A DNA stretch of 64,000 bases, taken from NCBI RefSeq assembly GCF_004114695.1, contig NZ_CP035310.1:62001-126000 (forward strand), given 5' to 3'. Position 1 is the first letter of the stretch. Every line of letters starts with the position of its first letter. This document shows positions 39,027 to 44,941 of this stretch, in pieces. Under the pieces are notes generated by a model. It saw only the letters and a list, made by a program, of their open reading frames with translations, was not told where the DNA came from and searched no databases. Position numbers and translations under genes: made by a program. The DNA is from Erythrobacter sp. HKB08 (lineage in GTDB: Bacteria; Pseudomonadota; Alphaproteobacteria; Sphingomonadales; Sphingomonadaceae).

Positions 39027-40805
39027 ATGAAGACTTTTGCCGCCGCCATCGCGCTAGCCGTAGCGCCCGTCGCGCTCGCAGCGCCCGCCTATGCGCAGGA
39101 CAATGCCGAAGAGGCCGCATCGCAGGACTGGGTCGCGACCAGCAACGCCTACACCCAGAAGGCGATCATGATGCAGGCATCGTTCTTTCCGACCGGTGCG
39201 TCCTCGGCCGGCTACGAACAGTATGACGGGCTGGTCAACGACATGTCGCTCGACCGCGACGAGCGCTATGTCGCCGCTTCCAGGGCGCTGATCGGCGAAT
39301 TCGAGGCCGCGCTCGCGACCGAGACCAATCCCTACGTCAAACAGGACCTCCAGATCCTGATCGATTCCCTCAAGATGGACATCGAGGGGATCGAACTCGG
39401 CAACAAGTACATGCTCGAATACAGCGAAGTGCCGCAAAGCATGTTCGGCAGTGTCGGCCAGCTGCTATCCGACCAGACCGCCGAAAGCCGCCGCGGCAAG
39501 GCGCTCGAACTGCTGCAACGCTTCACCGGCACCTGGCCCGATACCGAGCCGATGACCGAGCTTGCCAAGCGCCGCTTCGAAGCGAGCAGGGGTGAAGGCA
39601 AGATGGGCCCGTACCGGGTCGAGGTCGAGGAATCGATCGAGAAGATCCCGACCTTCGTCGCCGGCATCCGCGAACTCTTCGGCAAGTACGAGATCGAAGG
39701 CGCCGACGAAGCGCTCGGCGCTATGGAAGCGCAGCTGACCGAATATGCAGAGTGGACCCGCGAGACGGTGCTGCCGACCACACGCGACAACCCGCGCCTC
39801 CCGCCGGAACTCTATGCGCTCAGCCTGCGGCAGGTCGGTATCGACATGGACCCGTATGAATCGATGGCGCAGGCCCGCCGCGGTTTCTACGAAATCCGCG
39901 CCCAGATGGAGGCGCTCGCTCCGCAGATCGCAGCGAAGAACGGATGGGAAGAAACCGACTACCCCTCCGTCATGCGCCGCCTCAAGCAGCAGACCATTTC
40001 GAACGACGAGATCGAGGAATTCTACCGCGGCGTGAACCGCGAGCTGGAAGGCAAGATCCGCGAGAACGACATCGTCAGCCTGCCCGATTACGAGCTCTCC
40101 ATGCGCGTCGCCTCGGCCGCCGAGAGCGCCGCCCAGCCCGCGCCGCACATGCGCCCGCCGCGCCTCATCGGCAATACCGGCGAGCAGGGCACTTTCGTCC
40201 TCACCGTCGCCAATCCGACTGCCGGCGAAGGCGATGCATACGACGACTTCAACCACCCGGCGGCAAGCTGGACGCTGAGCGCGCACGAAGCGCGTCCGGG
40301 ACATGAAATGCAGTTCGCCGCGCTAGTCGAACAGGGCGTGAGCCTTGCCCGCCTGCTCTATGCATTCAACAGCGTTAACGTCGAAGGCTGGGCGCTCTAT
40401 GCCGAAGCCGAGATGCTGCCGCACGAACCGATCGAGGGCCAGTTCATCGCCCAGCAGTTCCGCCTTCTGCGCGCGGCACGCGCCTTCCTCGACCCGATGC
40501 TGAACCTCGGCCTGATCGAGCGCGAGGAAGCGGGGCGCATCCTGACCGAGGAAGCGCTGTTCTCGCCGGGCATGGTGAAGCAGGAGCTCGACCGCTACCA
40601 GTTCCGCATGCCGGGCCAGGCGGGCAGCTACTATTACGGCTACCGCAAGCTGATCGACCTGCGCGTCGAAGCGGAGATCGCGCTGGGCAACCGGTTCGAG
40701 GAAAAGGCGTTCAACGACTTCCTGCTGAGCCAGGGCATCATTCCGCTCGAACTGATGGCCAAGGCCGTGCGCGAGGAATTCATCCCCTCGCAGATGGCAG
40801 ACTGA
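39027..40805 (+). CDS. DUF885 family secreted metallopeptidase-like protein
   Basis: A 592-residue protein with a cleavable signal peptide (M-K-T-F-A-A-A-I-A-L ... A-Y-A). The metallopeptidase-like motif A-H-E-A-R-P-G-H-E-M-Q (about 413-423) is the DUF885 signature, a variant of H-E-x-x-H. The family includes secreted dipeptidase- or carboxypeptidase-like enzymes. A G-G-G-A-G-A-G-G ribosome site lies upstream. Its 3' end overlaps the convergent bufC gene by 26 bp. Confidence 0.85.
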   Translation: MKTFAAAIALAVAPVALAAPAYAQDNAEEAASQDWVATSNAYTQKAIMMQASFFPTGASSAGYEQYDGLVNDMSLDRDERYVAASRALIGEFEAALATETNPYVKQDLQILIDSLKMDIEGIELGNKYMLEYSEVPQSMFGSVGQLLSDQTAESRRGKALELLQRFTGTWPDTEPMTELAKRRFEASRGEGKMGPYRVEVEESIEKIPTFVAGIRELFGKYEIEGADEALGAMEAQLTEYAEWTRETVLPTTRDNPRLPPELYALSLRQVGIDMDPYESMAQARRGFYEIRAQMEALAPQIAAKNGWEETDYPSVMRRLKQQTISNDEIEEFYRGVNRELEGKIRENDIVSLPDYELSMRVASAAESAAQPAPHMRPPRLIGNTGEQGTFVLTVANPTAGEGDAYDDFNHPAASWTLSAHEARPGHEMQFAALVEQGVSLARLLYAFNSVNVEGWALYAEAEMLPHEPIEGQFIAQQFRLLRAARAFLDPMLNLGLIEREEAGRILTEEALFSPGMVKQELDRYQFRMPGQAGSYYYGYRKLIDLRVEAEIALGNRFEEKAFNDFLLSQGIIPLELMAKAVREEFIPSQMAD

Positions 40806-41562
40806 CCGACGCAACCAGGCCGTCGTGCAGCCAGCGCCCGAACATGGCGCCGGCCTGCGCGGCGGCGTCATCGCCCGCATCCTCGAACAGCACACCGCAG
40901 GCCTCGCTGTAGGTCTCGCCGGAGAGGATTGCGCCGAGCAATTCGCCTTCCGCCGCATCGACAAGTCGGAAAACCGGCTCGTAACCCTCTCGCCACACCA
41001 GCAGGCAGGCAGGACCGGCGAGCCTCGCAGCATCGCCAGGGTGTTCGCCGCCAGACAGGCCGCGCCATAGCGTTGCAACGTCGAAGGCGACCGGTCGAAT
41101 GGCGGTCCCGGGAAGCAGTTCGAGCTTCATTGCCGCCCAGTCCCCCTCGCCGAATTCCGCCGTCGCTGCGGCAAACCCGGCAGCGCCAAGCGGTTCGGCA
41201 TCGGCGGCGACGAATGCGTCGGTCATGGCCGCTTCGAGCCACGCGAGTTCGGCGACGTCCGGGTCGTCGGCAAAAAGATCGGCCAGCGTTTCGGCAAAGC
41301 CCTCGCCCGCCGCATCGAGCGTCCAGCTATTCGGTGGGCGCGAGATGACGTGGTGGGCGGCTGCCTGCGAAAAAGCGTCCTCCCCGACATAGCGCTCGGT
41401 CCTCTCGTAGGATGACTTCAGCGCCTCCATCAGCGAGGAGCGGTAGTTGTTGCGATAGATATCGAGCCCGGCTGCGTGGCGCGGGGTCCAGCCCGAAGGC
41501 AGCGCGCGGTCCTCGTCGAGGACATGCACCAGGAACTCCTTCTGGACGGCAGCAAGGCTCAT
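40780..41562 (-). CDS. bufC: BufC/HvfC-type maturation partner (DUF2063)
   Basis: A 260-residue protein. The N-terminal DUF2063 domain (about 1-95) has Q-K-E-F-L-V-H-V-L and I-Y-R-N-N-Y-R-S-S-L; a less conserved C-terminal half follows. BufC/HvfC proteins bind the precursor peptide and deliver it to the MNIO enzyme. It is coupled to bufB by an ATGA overlap and is the last gene of the leftward bufferin operon. Its stop end overlaps the convergent DUF885 gene. Only one BufC is present although two precursors are encoded. Confidence 0.92.
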   Translation of the reverse strand: MSLAAVQKEFLVHVLDEDRALPSGWTPRHAAGLDIYRNNYRSSLMEALKSSYERTERYVGEDAFSQAAAHHVISRPPNSWTLDAAGEGFAETLADLFADDPDVAELAWLEAAMTDAFVAADAEPLGAAGFAAATAEFGEGDWAAMKLELLPGTAIRPVAFDVATLWRGLSGGEHPGDAARLAGPACLLVWREGYEPVFRLVDAAEGELLGAILSGETYSEACGVLFEDAGDDAAAQAGAMFGRWLHDGLVASVSLPSARG

Positions 41563-42395
41563 GCTGCCAGCTCCGTGCGCGCCTCGCTCGCGATGTCGCG
41601 GGCAATCGCCAGCTCGTCAAGCAGTTCGCCGAGCGGCGGGATGCCGTCGTCGCGCTCGATCATCGTCGCGACCGGACCGACTAGTTCGATCGCTTCGCGG
41701 TAAAGCTCCCACACGCCCTCGCAGACCGGCTGGTCGTGCGTGTCGATCTTGATCGCGCCATCGGTATGCCCGGCAAGGTGGATCTGGCGCACGCGGTCAT
41801 GCGGAAGGCCGCGAAGATAGGCACGCGCATCGAAGCCGTGGTTGTGCGCGCTGACATGGATGTTGTTGACGTCGAGCAGCAGGTAGCACCCGGTACGCCG
41901 CGCCATTTCGGCGATGAATTCCCGCTCGCTCATCTCGTCCTCGGGAAAGGCGAGATAGCTCGACGGGTTCTCGAACAACATCGCGCGGCCCAGCGTTTCC
42001 TGCGCAAGATCGATATTGTCGCACACCACCTGAAGCGCCTCGCGCGTATAGGGCATCGGCAGGAGGTCGTGGCTGTTGTGCGCGCTGGTGCGGGTCCAGC
42101 ACAGATGGTCCGAGACCCAGAGCGGCTCGATCCGGAAGGCCAGCGCCTTCAGCTTTGCGAGATATTCGCGGTCGAGGCCGTGGGCCGACCCGATCGACAT
42201 GGACACGCCGTGCAGGATGACCGGCAGCTTTTCGCGCACCTGCGTCAGTACGCGCAGCGGATTGCCGCCATCGACCATGAAATTCTCCGAGATGACCTCG
42301 ACGAAATCGACCGGGACATCGCCTTTGAGAAAATCGGCGTAGTGCGTGCGGCGCAGGCCGAGGCCGAAGCCGTCGAACGGGGCGATTGCAGTCAT
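41559..42395 (-). CDS. bufB: BufB, MNIO (DUF692) bufferin maturase
   Basis: A 278-residue multinuclear non-heme iron oxidative enzyme. Candidate metal ligands typical of the TIM-barrel family are H62, D96/H97, E142/N143, D175, H206, H210 and D221. G-F-G-L-G-L-R and F-V-E-V-I-S-E-N-F open the fold. In bufferins the enzyme converts cysteine residues of the precursor to thiooxazole-type groups that bind copper. The ATG at 42395 is chosen over the longer open frame because the upstream part is a shadow of bufA2 and the hairpin. It lies 92 bp after bufA2 across a strong stem-loop. Confidence 0.94.
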   Translation of the reverse strand: MTAIAPFDGFGLGLRRTHYADFLKGDVPVDFVEVISENFMVDGGNPLRVLTQVREKLPVILHGVSMSIGSAHGLDREYLAKLKALAFRIEPLWVSDHLCWTRTSAHNSHDLLPMPYTREALQVVCDNIDLAQETLGRAMLFENPSSYLAFPEDEMSEREFIAEMARRTGCYLLLDVNNIHVSAHNHGFDARAYLRGLPHDRVRQIHLAGHTDGAIKIDTHDQPVCEGVWELYREAIELVGPVATMIERDDGIPPLGELLDELAIARDIASEARTELAA

Positions 42396-42426
42396 GGGAA
42401 CATCCGGATTGGCGGGAAAGGGGAGA

Positions 42427-42474
42427 TGCGGCCCGGCAGTGACGGGGGAGGGGTGTTGGGACGACCGGGCCGCA
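42427..42474 (-). promoter_or_regulatory. intercistronic stem-loop between bufA2 and bufB
   Basis: TGCGGCCCGG (42427-42436) and CCGGGCCGCA (42465-42474) form a perfect 10-bp GC stem with a 28-nt loop in the bufA2-bufB gap. On the transcript it is followed by a pyrimidine-rich run. It can attenuate read-through or stabilise the bufA2 message so that precursor exceeds maturase. Confidence 0.65.
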
Positions 42475-42487
42475 CCGGTTGGTCCGA

Positions 42488-42766
42488 TCAGCCCAGGTCG
42501 CCGATCGTACCGCCCTTGGTCAGGCACTCGCCCGCCTTCATCGCCTTGAAGCCGTGACCCTTGCAGGCGTTCTGGCCCTTGCAGGCATTTTCGGTGGTCT
42601 TGCAGTCTGCGTTGCCGGCGCAGTCGTGCACGCCGTAGCAATGCACCGTATCGTTCGCGCCGATCGCGCGGCCAGTGCTTCCCGCCGGCGGCTCGGCGGC
42701 GAATGCGGCGGCAGAGGTGAGGGCGAAAGCTGCTGCGGCAGCGGCGAAAGCGGTATTTCTGGTCAT
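42488..42766 (-). CDS. bufA2: BufA2-type bufferin precursor (periplasmic copper-binding RiPP)
   Basis: A 92-residue precursor. A signal peptide (about 1-24) is followed by a short mature region with six cysteines at 43, 49, 55, 62, 68 and 81 in [22 protein letters not shown] and G-E-C-L. The ATG at 42766 gives a clean signal peptide; the longer frame upstream runs through the promoter. Modified cysteines would chelate copper in the periplasm. It is the first gene of the leftward operon and has an exact sigma-F-like promoter. Confidence 0.9.
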
Positions 42767-42827
42767 TGCAAGCACTCCACAAGACTTGTGAGAACGAGAG
42801 GGATGTCCGCGAAGGGACATGGGACCA

Positions 42828-42853
42828 TTCGTCCGCGCAGTGCGGCTGGTTAC
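42828..42853 (-). promoter_or_regulatory. sigma-F-type promoter of bufA2-bufB-bufC
   Basis: On the reverse strand GTAACC (42848-42853) and CGAA (42828-42831) are separated by exactly 16 nt, 62 bp before the bufA2 ATG. This equals the motif I recall for Caulobacter sigma-F (heavy-metal ECF). It mirrors the promoter at 42879. Confidence 0.8.
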
Positions 42854-42878
42854 AGTGCCGGATTTTTTCGCAGGCCGC

Positions 42879-42904
42879 GTAACCGATCGCGGGCCTGCCC
42901 CGAA
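42879..42904 (+). promoter_or_regulatory. sigma-F-type promoter of bufA1-doxX-sigF-nrsF
   Basis: GTAACC (42879-42884), 16 nt, CGAA (42901-42904), 66 bp before the bufA1 ATG. Identical motif and spacing to the divergent promoter; the two -35 elements are 25 bp apart. It drives the operon that encodes the sigma factor itself. Confidence 0.8.
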
Positions 42905-42970
42905 CTCCCCGACAGCTTCACCGCCTGGGTGCAGCCCCCTTCAATGGTCCCGTCCACGGAGTTTGGAAGA

Positions 42971-43255
42971 ATGAACACGACCAATATCGCCCGCATCGCC
43001 GGCCTCGCCCTTGCGGCAGGCATCACTGCCGGCCTCACCGTGACCCCGGCTGCTGCCCAGAGCGGCGGCAAGGAGAAGTGCTACGGCGTCGCCAAGGCAG
43101 GCAAGAACGACTGCGCGGCAGGTCCGGGCACGAGCTGCGCCGGCACTTCCACTCGCGACTACCAGGGCAATGCCTGGAAGCTGGTCGACAAGGGCACTTG
43201 CGTGAAGATCAAGACGCCCAAGGGCAACGGCTCGCTGACGCCGATCAAGCGCTGA
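42971..43255 (+). CDS. bufA1: BufA1-type bufferin precursor (DUF2282)
   Basis: A 94-residue precursor with a signal peptide (about 1-29, A-A-A-Q cleavage region) and a mature part with four cysteines at 37, 48, 56 and 77. [23 protein letters not shown] and K-G-T-C are the DUF2282/bufferin-1 signature. The central two cysteines are the known sites of MNIO modification in related bufferins. The mature peptide would buffer copper in the periplasm. No dedicated bufB/bufC lies beside it, so it must use the divergently encoded pair. Confidence 0.93.
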
Positions 43256-43280
43256 CACGAGGCCGAACCGGAGAGCAGCC

Positions 43281-43730
43281 ATGCAGCGCGCCATATCCCT
43301 CTACGACCGGACGACCCGTTTCCTGTCCGGCTCCCTGATCGAGAGCGGCGCGCTGCTACTCACCCGCCTTTCGCTGGCCGGCGTCTTCTGGCGCTCGGGC
43401 CGGACCAAGGTGGTCGAAGGCAGCTGGCTGCAGATCGAGGAGACGCAGTACTATTTGTTCGAGGAATTCGGCCTGCCCGTTTCTCCGCAAATCATGGTCC
43501 CGATGGCGACCTATGCGGAATTTTTCCTGCCGGTCCTCGTCGCCTTGGGCCTCGCGACGCGTCTGTCCGCCCTCGCCCTTCTTGGCATGACGATGGTCAT
43601 CCAGTTCCTGGTCTTTCCGGAAGCCTGGTGGGCGACCCACAGCCTGTGGGCGGCGATGGCGCTGGTCCTCGTCAGCCGCGGCGCAGGCCTTTTTTCGCTC
43701 GACGCGCTCATTGCCAGGGTGCGAGGGTGA
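43281..43730 (+). CDS. DoxX family membrane protein of the bufferin operon
   Basis: A 149-residue membrane protein with about four helices (20-40, 72-95, 98-115, 118-138). L-L-L-T-R-L-S-L-A-G-V-F-W-R-S-G-R-T-K and E-F-F-L-P-V-L-V-A-L-G match DoxX proteins that recur in bufferin and related HvfX clusters (BufD-like). A link to electron supply for the modifying enzyme or to membrane copper handling is suspected, not proven. GGAGAG precedes the start 25 bp after bufA1. Confidence 0.88.
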   Translation: MQRAISLYDRTTRFLSGSLIESGALLLTRLSLAGVFWRSGRTKVVEGSWLQIEETQYYLFEEFGLPVSPQIMVPMATYAEFFLPVLVALGLATRLSALALLGMTMVIQFLVFPEAWWATHSLWAAMALVLVSRGAGLFSLDALIARVRG

Positions 43731-43754
43731 TCCCGCTCTCGGGGGAGAGAAACG

Positions 43755-44285
43755 ATGATTGCAGACGAGCCGACCCTCGCCAGTTTGATGGCCCGCTCGC
43801 AAAAGGGCGACCAGCAGGCCTATGCCGTGCTGCTTACCGAAGTGCAGCTGTGGCTGGAACGCTATTTCCGCCGCCGCTGCGCCCCGGCCCAGCTCGACGA
43901 CCTGGTGCAGGAAGTGATGATGGCGGTGCATAACAAGCGCGCCACCTGGGACCCGACCCGCGCATTCCTGCCGTGGCTGGCGGCGATCGCGCGCTATCGC
44001 TGGGTCGATCACCTGCGCAAGGTCTATCGCAACGAGGAAGACGCGCTGGAAGATTTCGACGCGCCGGAAGACAGCGAGGAAGAAGCCGTCCTTGCCCGGC
44101 TTAGCCTCGAGCGCATGTTCGTCCACATTCCCGAAAAACAGTCCGAAGCGATCGAGCTGGTGAAGATCGAAGGCCTGTCGATCAGGGAAGCCGCCGAGCG
44201 GAGCGGGCAAAGCGAATCCGCCGTCAAAGTGAATATCCATCGCGGGCTGAAGAAGCTATCCGCGCTCGTAGAGAAGGCAGAATGA
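43755..44285 (+). CDS. sigF: ECF sigma factor, sigma-F type (metal stress)
   Basis: A 176-residue ECF sigma factor. Sigma2 (about 22-88) includes Q-L-D-D-L-V-Q-E-V-M-M-A-V-H and W-L-A-A-I-A-R-Y-R-W-V-D; sigma4 (about 113-170) has I-P-E-K-Q-S-E-A-I-E-L-V and E-S-A-V-K-V-N-I-H-R-G-L-K-K-L. This group partners with NrsF, encoded next and overlapping by ATGA, and in Caulobacter answers chromate, cadmium and copper stress. Identical GTAACC-N16-CGAA promoters precede both bufferin operons, including its own. Confidence 0.92.
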   Translation: MIADEPTLASLMARSQKGDQQAYAVLLTEVQLWLERYFRRRCAPAQLDDLVQEVMMAVHNKRATWDPTRAFLPWLAAIARYRWVDHLRKVYRNEEDALEDFDAPEDSEEEAVLARLSLERMFVHIPEKQSEAIELVKIEGLSIREAAERSGQSESAVKVNIHRGLKKLSALVEKAE

Positions 44286-44941
44286 CCATGAACCCCGAAC
44301 GCGGCAGGGTACCCAATCCCCTGATCGACCAGCTCACGCAGGAGCTCGAACCGGTCCGTGCAATCCGCCTGCGCGACGGGCTGGCGCTCGTCGCTCTCGC
44401 GATGGTCGGCACGGTCCTCGCCGTCGAGTTCATCGACGGGCTGTGGCGCGGCGCCTTTGCCGGAGAAGCCTCCGCCTTCTTCGTCATCGGTAACGGGTTG
44501 CTGCTCGTCCTCGGGCTTGCAGCTGCGACAAGCGCCGTCGGCATGGCCAGCCCGCGCGTCGGCAATCGCCACGAAGGACCCAAATGGGCGATGGCGATGG
44601 CCGCCGTCCTCCCCGCAGGCGCGCTCCTCTCGCTGCTGGGCCACGACCATCCCGCGAGCGGTTTCGACGATCCCTATGGCCTCGAATGCATGACCAAGGG
44701 GTTGATCGCGTCGCTGCTGGTCACAGGGTCGCTGGTGGTCTGGCTGCGCCGGGGTGCACCGGTTTCGGCCAGTGCCGCTGGCCTGCTGGTAGGCACAGCA
44801 GCCGCATCGCTGGGGAGCGTCGCATACGGCCTCGCCTGTCCGATCGACACGGTTGCGCACATCGGCATCTGGCACTTCGCGCCGGTCCCGATCGGTGCGC
44901 TTATCGGACGCCTCGCCCTGCCCCCGCTACTTCGCTGGTAG
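44282..44941 (+). CDS. nrsF: NrsF (DUF1109) anti-sigma factor
   Basis: A 219-residue membrane protein with about six helices and a short cytoplasmic N-terminus (about 1-30) that would hold the sigma factor. Two cysteines, C136 (L-E-C-M-T-K-G) and C186 (L-A-C-P-I-D-T-V-A-H), match the pair known to be needed for metal sensing in Caulobacter NrsF, together with nearby histidines. Metal binding would release sigma-F. It overlaps sigF and ends 3 bp from the convergent ZntB gene. Confidence 0.93.
   Translation: MTMNPERGRVPNPLIDQLTQELEPVRAIRLRDGLALVALAMVGTVLAVEFIDGLWRGAFAGEASAFFVIGNGLLLVLGLAAATSAVGMASPRVGNRHEGPKWAMAMAAVLPAGALLSLLGHDHPASGFDDPYGLECMTKGLIASLLVTGSLVVWLRRGAPVSASAAGLLVGTAAASLGSVAYGLACPIDTVAHIGIWHFAPVPIGALIGRLALPPLLRW

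Follow-up and report, generated by a model that had tools for sequence, protein, structure and literature searches.

In Caulobacter, the sigma factor gene sigF and the anti-sigma factor gene nrsF (CC3253-3252) are numbered next to CC3254-3257, which encode DUF2282, MNIO, DUF2063 and DoxX proteins (PMC3511200). A study of copper stress called CC3253-3252 and CC3254-3257 a cluster and reported that sigF, nrsF and both bufferin operons were co-induced (PMC8224329). In that study, the sigF response to copper was log2 4.44 and 4.70 in M2G and 2.78 and 2.17 in PYE, and a sigF mutant was copper-sensitive. Autoregulation of sigF was weak under chromium and cadmium (Kohler et al., PMC3511200). Here we describe a related locus of Erythrobacter sp. 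HKB08, which lies in a 64,000-nucleotide stretch of contig NZ_CP035310.1 (positions 62,001 to 126,000, forward strand; hereafter, the window) and combines two bufferin precursor genes, one MNIO maturase gene and a sigF-nrsF pair. The initial annotation of the window held that sigF-nrsF and the bufferin genes do not form a compact unit in Caulobacter, a contrast that the published gene numbers and copper data contradict. Given the clustering and co-induction in Caulobacter, a compact self-activating unit is already on record.

Antoine et al. 2025 (PMC12452194) described Buf1 and Buf2 clusters with a strict bufABC order, and found sigma/NrsF genes in the former but not in the latter. They predicted ~16% of Buf2 precursors to be lipoproteins, noted stand-alone and tandem precursors, and left open the substrate range of MNIOs and the fate of precursors without a neighbouring MNIO gene.

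One maturase gene beside two precursor families

Seven intact genes occupy positions 40780-44941 of the window: a minus-strand run, bufA2-bufB-bufC, and a divergent plus-strand run, bufA1-doxX-sigF-nrsF (Table 1). These genes would make and control two peptides that probably bind copper. The initial annotation had described the region as a full set of bufferin genes arranged in two divergent operons, and its coordinates, split and gene families were all confirmed. It missed what we consider the more interesting point: a single MNIO serves as candidate maturase for two precursor families. The source genome is a single 2.75-Mb contig with a completeness score of 100%, and profile searches of it found a single gene for each of MNIO, BufA2 and DUF2282. 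We propose that one Buf2-type pair, the MNIO BufB and the DUF2063 protein BufC, probably matures both BufA2 and BufA1 under one sigma-F/NrsF switch.

Among 79 further genomes searched, 53 likewise had a single MNIO (28 of 29 and 25 of 50 in two sets), and the remaining 26 had two or more matches; the genome of L016, a locus on a 4-kb contig, was excluded from these counts. Besides the source, 34 single-MNIO genomes carry bufA1 and bufA2 at one locus.

The ancestry of the enzyme was evaluated using a tree of 115 MNIO sequences, 112 of them different, built by a quick method without bootstrap and containing several long branches. Nine MNIOs from bufA1-bufB operons form a group of their own (Shimodaira-Hasegawa-like approximate likelihood ratio test, SH-aLRT, 100), and the window enzyme groups with those from bufA2 operons. 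Window BufB, aligned to structures 3bww, 8hci and 7fc0, has an Asp after the catalytic Asp, which is the Buf2-type (Cys-Lys, BufB2 class) residue (PMC13097082). In the comparison of this site (85 rows, two unreadable), Asp is present in 79 of the 83 readable bufA2-operon enzymes, including that of the window. Five two-MNIO loci encode six BufA1 proteins, whose cores share 50-82% identity with that of window BufA1; judged by this identity, there is no obvious sign that BufA1 was remade in the absence of its own enzyme. Two MNIOs of the sampled family, those of L104 and L117, sit on a long separate branch, and no bufferin precursor was found within 1.5 kb of either.

Table 1. Genes and sigma-F-type promoters of the bufferin locus (window positions)
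Feature	Position	Strand	Description	Basis or placement
bufC	40780..41562	-	DUF2063 partner protein, 260 aa	Pfam PF09836, 64.4 bits (cut-off 27.2)
bufB	41559..42395	-	MNIO maturase, Buf2-operon type	NCBIfam BufB equivalog NF050167, 373.6 bits (cut-off 310)
bufA2	42488..42766	-	Six-Cys precursor, 92 aa	NF050166, 98.4 bits (cut-off 60)
Promoter GTAACC-N16-CGAA	42828..42853	-	Sigma-F-type, toward bufA2-bufB-bufC	61 bases before bufA2 ATG at 42766
Promoter GTAACC-N16-CGAA	42879..42904	+	Sigma-F-type, toward bufA1-doxX-sigF-nrsF	66 bases before bufA1 ATG at 42971
bufA1	42971..43255	+	Four-Cys DUF2282 precursor, 94 aa	PF10048, 88.8 bits (cut-off 22.4)
doxX	43281..43730	+	DoxX-family membrane protein, 149 aa	PF07681, 62.1 bits (cut-off 23.6)
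sigF	43755..44285	+	Extracytoplasmic function (ECF) sigma factor, 176 aa	Sigma70_r2 and r4_2 (regions 2 and 4)
nrsF	44282..44941	+	Membrane anti-sigma factor, 219 aa	PF06532, 118.3 bits (cut-off 26.8)

Genes were assigned at the Pfam level, and bufB and bufA2 at the NCBIfam level, where they passed the families' own cut-offs. The best NCBIfam match of sigF, PRK12539, scored 157.5 bits, under its cut-off of 171. NrsF belongs to its Pfam family and scored 20.1 bits against the NrsF equivalog NF042994 (cut-off 300). Scores for the HvfX/HvfC families NF050144 and NF050145 were also under the cut-offs (49.6 vs 80 and 20.3 vs 142). BufA2 and BufA1 each have a Sec-type signal, as judged by eye. The DUF2063 partner gene directly follows the MNIO gene, as in bufferin gene clusters. 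The bufC/bufB and sigF/nrsF pairs overlap by 4 bases, and gaps of 25 and 24 bases separate bufA1 from doxX and doxX from sigF, respectively. The bufA-bufB-bufC order holds for bufA2, whereas bufA1 departs from it by running divergently to bufB.

Paired sigma-F-type promoters and a proposed NrsF switch

The sigma-F promoter of Caulobacter is GTAACC-N16-CGAA (Kohler et al. 2012, PMC3511200). With spacers of 14-18 bases allowed, this motif has two matches in the 64-kb window, both with a spacer of 16. They lie back to back, 25 bases apart and directed outward, in the 204-base gap between the start codons of bufA2 and bufA1. As two copies occurred in none of 100 shuffles of the window, the paired motifs are beyond chance.

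The comparison of the pair covered 44 divergent loci, the window among them; bufA2 is present in 28 and absent from 16. All 44 have a GTAACN-N16-CGAA box, in which the sixth base is free, directed toward bufA1. Toward bufA2 or bufB, it was found in 39 by automatic count and by inspection in four more (L040, L056, L066 and L084), where the chosen start codon had cut the scanned region. Both boxes are kept in 43 loci; the sole altered box, in L042, has CGTA for CGAA. None of 100 shuffles per set produced more than one locus with a box of this kind on either side.

No exact motif stands directly before sigF in the window. Because sigF begins 24 bases behind doxX and lacks an exact motif of its own, it should be transcribed from the bufA1 promoter, an arrangement in which positive feedback and its brake would be produced together. 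The view of the initial annotation that the sigma factor and its anti-sigma factor share an operon with a precursor is borne out, sigF-nrsF lying downstream of bufA1 behind a sigma-F-type promoter. In the Pontixanthobacter group, a sigma-F motif directed toward sigF spans the doxX-sigF junction (L014:4524-4549, L015:4605-4630 and L016:1038-1063); a dedicated sigma-F promoter may drive sigF there, unlike in the window. A wider sigma-F regulon in the source genome was unsupported: a scan that took exact GTAACC, leaving out variants such as GTAACG, gave 11 matches to GTAACC-N15-17-CGAA versus 12 in a reversed control. The nine matches outside the locus overlap open frames of >150 codons, which is weak evidence in GC-rich DNA.

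The two cysteines of NrsF matter in Caulobacter. Both conserved cysteines are present in window NrsF (in LECM and LACP), and an alignment of 60 NrsF rows keeps them in 59 and 58 cases. We infer the following course of sensing, induction, cross-family modification and function. Metal, copper by analogy, would act on the two cysteines of membrane-bound NrsF. The sigma-F thereby released would fire both back-to-back promoters. One transcript would yield BufA2 together with the modifying pair BufB-BufC; the other would yield BufA1, DoxX and more sigma-F and NrsF, so that the positive feedback would come with its own brake. BufB-BufC would oxidise cysteines of both precursors to thiooxazoles, and the modified BufA2 and BufA1 would be exported by Sec and bind periplasmic metal.

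Gene order, loss of bufA2 and lipoprotein-like precursors in relatives

Gene order was compared in 81 loci, namely the window and the best 80 of 571 MNIO relatives of its enzyme; the frequencies are not a census. Precursor genes were sought using bufA1 and bufA2 hidden Markov models (HMMs) built on the mature parts. Divergent bufA1 and bufA2 are present in 28 loci, and the window order with doxX, sigF and nrsF in 25, window included. The order is thus shared by several assemblies, a point that the initial annotation had proposed to check. Among the 28, L023 and L036 have no sigF-nrsF in the fetched stretch, and L059 is rearranged. The divergent form without bufA2 accounts for 16 loci, and a Sphingomonas form, doxX-bufA1 divergent from sigF-nrsF-bufA2-bufB-bufC, for 11. 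Codirectional bufA1 and bufA2 without sigF are found in 12 (Luteibacter, Dyella, Cupriavidus, Pseudomonas, Burkholderia and others), two MNIOs in 5, and other arrangements in 9. Genes for BufA2, sigma-F and NrsF occur together in 43 of the 81. The codirectional sigF-less loci are from Gamma- and Betaproteobacteria (L045, L046, L048, L050, L052, L054, L057, L060, L062, L063, L070 and L072). When the family was sampled more evenly, an MNIO was found in 39 of 119 genomes; 29 loci of this sample besides the window copy included 11 with divergent bufA1/bufA2 and one without bufA2, and three of the 29 enzymes were identical to rows of the 80.

Four neighbours of the window locus have a Pfam match: a short-chain dehydrogenase/reductase (SDR), DUF885, CorA and GcpE/IspG. 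The fetched stretch contains both ispG and an SDR gene in 21 of the 80 relative loci, and one of the two in 5 more. Judged by title or tree position, every one of these flanked loci belongs to Erythrobacteraceae or lies close to it, and most Erythrobacteraceae loci compared have a fixed place near ispG. These flanks were not found in the fetched stretches of Novosphingobium, Sphingobium, Sphingosinicella, Croceicoccus (L055) and E. colymbi (L023). The MNIO of E. colymbi groups with Sphingobium and Sphingomonas rows. The whole seven-gene unit with both sigma-F boxes also stands between unrelated genes on the 893-kb plasmid pBSY17_1 of Sphingobium sp. RAC03 (L143:3480-7607), the one examined of 349 plasmid records with a BufB relative. 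In Luteimonas kalidii (L059:4035-8320), nrsF directly follows doxX, and a sigF-like frame lies beyond bufC; the MNIO falls on a long branch among sphingomonad enzymes. Some of the portability envisaged in the initial annotation is supported by the plasmid unit and the rearranged Luteimonas copy, but the term is too strong for the window's own lineage, in which the locus is mostly fixed beside ispG/SDR.

In the tree, the 17 MNIOs of Erythrobacter-group loci that lack bufA2 cluster together, nested in the bufA2-operon enzymes (support 91), a placement that fits one apparent loss of bufA2 in this group. Genome searches covered 16 of the 17. Each genome has one MNIO, one NrsF and a BufA1 at the locus, and none has a BufA2 match above the cut-off. 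Two weak BufA2 matches correspond, by place, to the locus BufA1 of G023 and the third DUF2282 gene of G028. No EGKCG-repeat precursor was found in these 16 genomes using a DNA pattern with one mismatch allowed and without a positive control. The median ratio of nonsynonymous to synonymous substitution (dN/dS) for bufB was 0.131 in the bufA2-less group (46 pairs) and 0.180 in bufA2-bearing relatives (49 pairs), calculated according to Nei-Gojobori with dS limited to 0.05-1.5 and from pairs that are not independent. By this measure, bufB is under purifying selection where only BufA1-type precursors are known. Retention of bufB with a low dN/dS would not be expected of an enzyme left useless by the loss of bufA2. 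The residue that follows the catalytic Asp is Asp in 10 of the bufA2-less enzymes, Glu in 6 and Ala in 1. Parsimony gave 3 changes at this site over 4.65 branch units in these enzymes versus 3 over 23.0 in bufA2-operon enzymes; bufA1-operon enzymes showed 4 over 10.6. These values are only suggestive of a relaxed MNIO specificity after the loss of BufA2.

The two groups also differ in their DUF2282 genes. Each of 13 bufA2-bearing genomes has one, as does the source genome. Of the 16 bufA2-less genomes, 15 have two or three; the one that does not is G029, a 2.2-Mb metagenome-assembled genome (MAG). The seventeenth bufA2-less genome, G070, has two. In all 15, one extra copy encodes a signal ending in a lipobox-like Cys, followed by an Ala/Glu-rich linker and a bufferin core. 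The Cys was called by pattern or by eye, not by a lipoprotein predictor: 14 of 14 sequences matched a broad, PROSITE-like pattern, 11 matched a narrower one, and L123 was called by eye. An exact GTAACC-N16-CGAA lies upstream of 10 of the 15 genes. Based on signal and motif, these unlinked proteins are probably membrane-anchored bufferins of the same sigma-F regulon. The lipoprotein-like unlinked precursors are L122-L124, L126-L137 and L141. Those of L124, L127 and L130 neighbour an amino acid kinase gene (argB by reading) and folD, families that Pfam confirmed for L124. A strict replacement of BufA2 by the lipoprotein-like BufA1 is weakened by the bufA2-bearing genome G148, which has BufA1, BufA2 and a lipoprotein-like BufA1 with an exact motif (L141). 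Four further extra DUF2282 genes (L125, L138, L139 and L140, the last two from bufA2-bearing G154) have neither a lipobox-like Cys nor an exact sigma-F motif and adjoin no MNIO gene found by search.

Alternative explanations and described systems

The locus could be an ordinary bufferin locus, rearranged, in which the single MNIO is an economy that adds little beyond tandem-precursor clusters. This reading is compatible with a shared maturase and is possible, if on the unlikely side. Every gene belongs to a described family, mixed bufA1/bufA2 loci are common among the relatives, and Antoine et al. 2025 noted both tandem precursors and possible multi-substrate MNIOs (PMC12452194). It sits less well with the same paper's finding of sigma/NrsF genes in Buf1 and not Buf2 clusters, set against the 43 loci that combine them with bufA2 here, with the strict order that window bufA1 breaks, and with the main text, which uses "lipoprotein" once, for Buf2.

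The main rival holds that only BufA2 is modified and that BufA1 is an unmodified, Cys-rich periplasmic copper binder that is merely co-regulated. The sharing of an operon by bufB and bufA2 alone, the Buf2-type Asp in the window and most bufA2-operon enzymes, and the absence of Cys-Lys from window BufA1 all accord with it. We nevertheless consider it improbable: in the bufA2-less group, bufB and bufC are intact, with bufB evidently under purifying selection among BufA1-type precursors only, and Caulobacter bufferin 1 was reported to carry thiooxazoles (PMC13097082). A recently acquired mobile metal-resistance island, to which the plasmid-borne unit, the place of the Luteimonas kalidii MNIO and the unflanked E. 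colymbi locus might point, is very improbable and was rejected for the window genome on its conserved ispG/SDR flanks.

We favour a shared maturase for BufA2 and BufA1 as the most likely reading, against which several points weigh. BufA1 could stay unmodified; the window protein has no Cys-Lys motif, the Lys of which was modelled as contacted by the Buf2-type enzyme (PMC13097082). An MNIO substrate of a third, undescribed kind might be encoded in the bufA2-less genomes. Of the 50 genomes in one set, 25 gave more than one MNIO match; the use of a single enzyme for two families is hence not a universal rule, and several genomes are MAGs or drafts in which a second MNIO could be missed. Finally, five of the 15 lipoprotein-like BufA1 genes (L126, L127, L128, L129 and L134) have no exact upstream sigma-F motif. 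The wider proposal, that the maturase is shared by the whole sigma-F regulon, comprising BufA2, soluble BufA1 and, in some relatives, the unlinked membrane-anchored lipoprotein BufA1, stands at about even odds.

All of the parts are known, and the retention of the enzyme in relatives without bufA2 suggests service of both peptide families. If the maturase is shared across the regulon, bufferin maturases would be tied neither to a single precursor family nor to the operon that encodes them, and precursors would be exchangeable, with BufA2 lost and lipid-anchored BufA1 kept while the enzyme and the switch stay constant. The single-MNIO genomes with two families and the bufA2-loss group provide clean natural cases for the question of substrate range. 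A further indication is that sigma-F also controls Buf2 operons, together with unlinked bufferins that are probably lipid-anchored. The known extent of copper defence in sphingomonads and related bacteria is thereby broadened.

Among described systems, the Buf1 and Buf2 clusters share families and core genes with the window (PMC12452194). Unlike in those clusters, window bufA1 is divergent from bufB, and bufA2 shares its locus with sigF-nrsF; lipoproteins were predicted there for Buf2, whereas the lipoprotein-like precursors in relatives of the window are Buf1 and not Buf2. Titles and abstract openings in the open-licence literature revealed no evident paper on a mixed or sigma-linked bufferin arrangement. 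In the study of captophorin MNIO specificity, the Asp found in the window enzyme belongs to the Cys-Lys (BufB2) class, and the passages cited describe no test of one enzyme on two precursor families from one locus (PMC13097082). The Chryseobacterium-type lipidated MNIO product, a ribosomally synthesized and post-translationally modified peptide (RiPP), is a precedent for an MNIO product passing through the lipoprotein pathway; its MNIO class and chemistry differ, and the parts of that paper cited here mention neither DUF2282 nor sigma-F (PMC12636315).

Two Caulobacter systems are close as well. Caulobacter sp. S45 (L088) has divergent bufA1 and bufA2 operons, sigma-F motifs and a nearby sigF-nrsF, as in the window, but its bufA1 has its own MNIO and DUF2063 genes where the window has only the bufA2-side pair. 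The Caulobacter regulon has the same sigma/anti-sigma pair, promoter motif, MNIO, DUF2063, DoxX and DUF2282 precursor, with sigF-nrsF likewise beside a bufferin operon, and its induction by copper, chromate and cadmium has been measured (PMC3511200, PMC8224329). Its sigF has its own promoter, whereas window sigF lies behind bufA1, and it has two MNIO-DUF2063 pairs, one per precursor (CC3254-3257 and CC2907-2905), versus one in the window. The window locus is a streamlined relative of the Caulobacter regulon: it lacks the enzyme pair of the bufA1 side, and both precursors are left to the pair of the bufA2 side.

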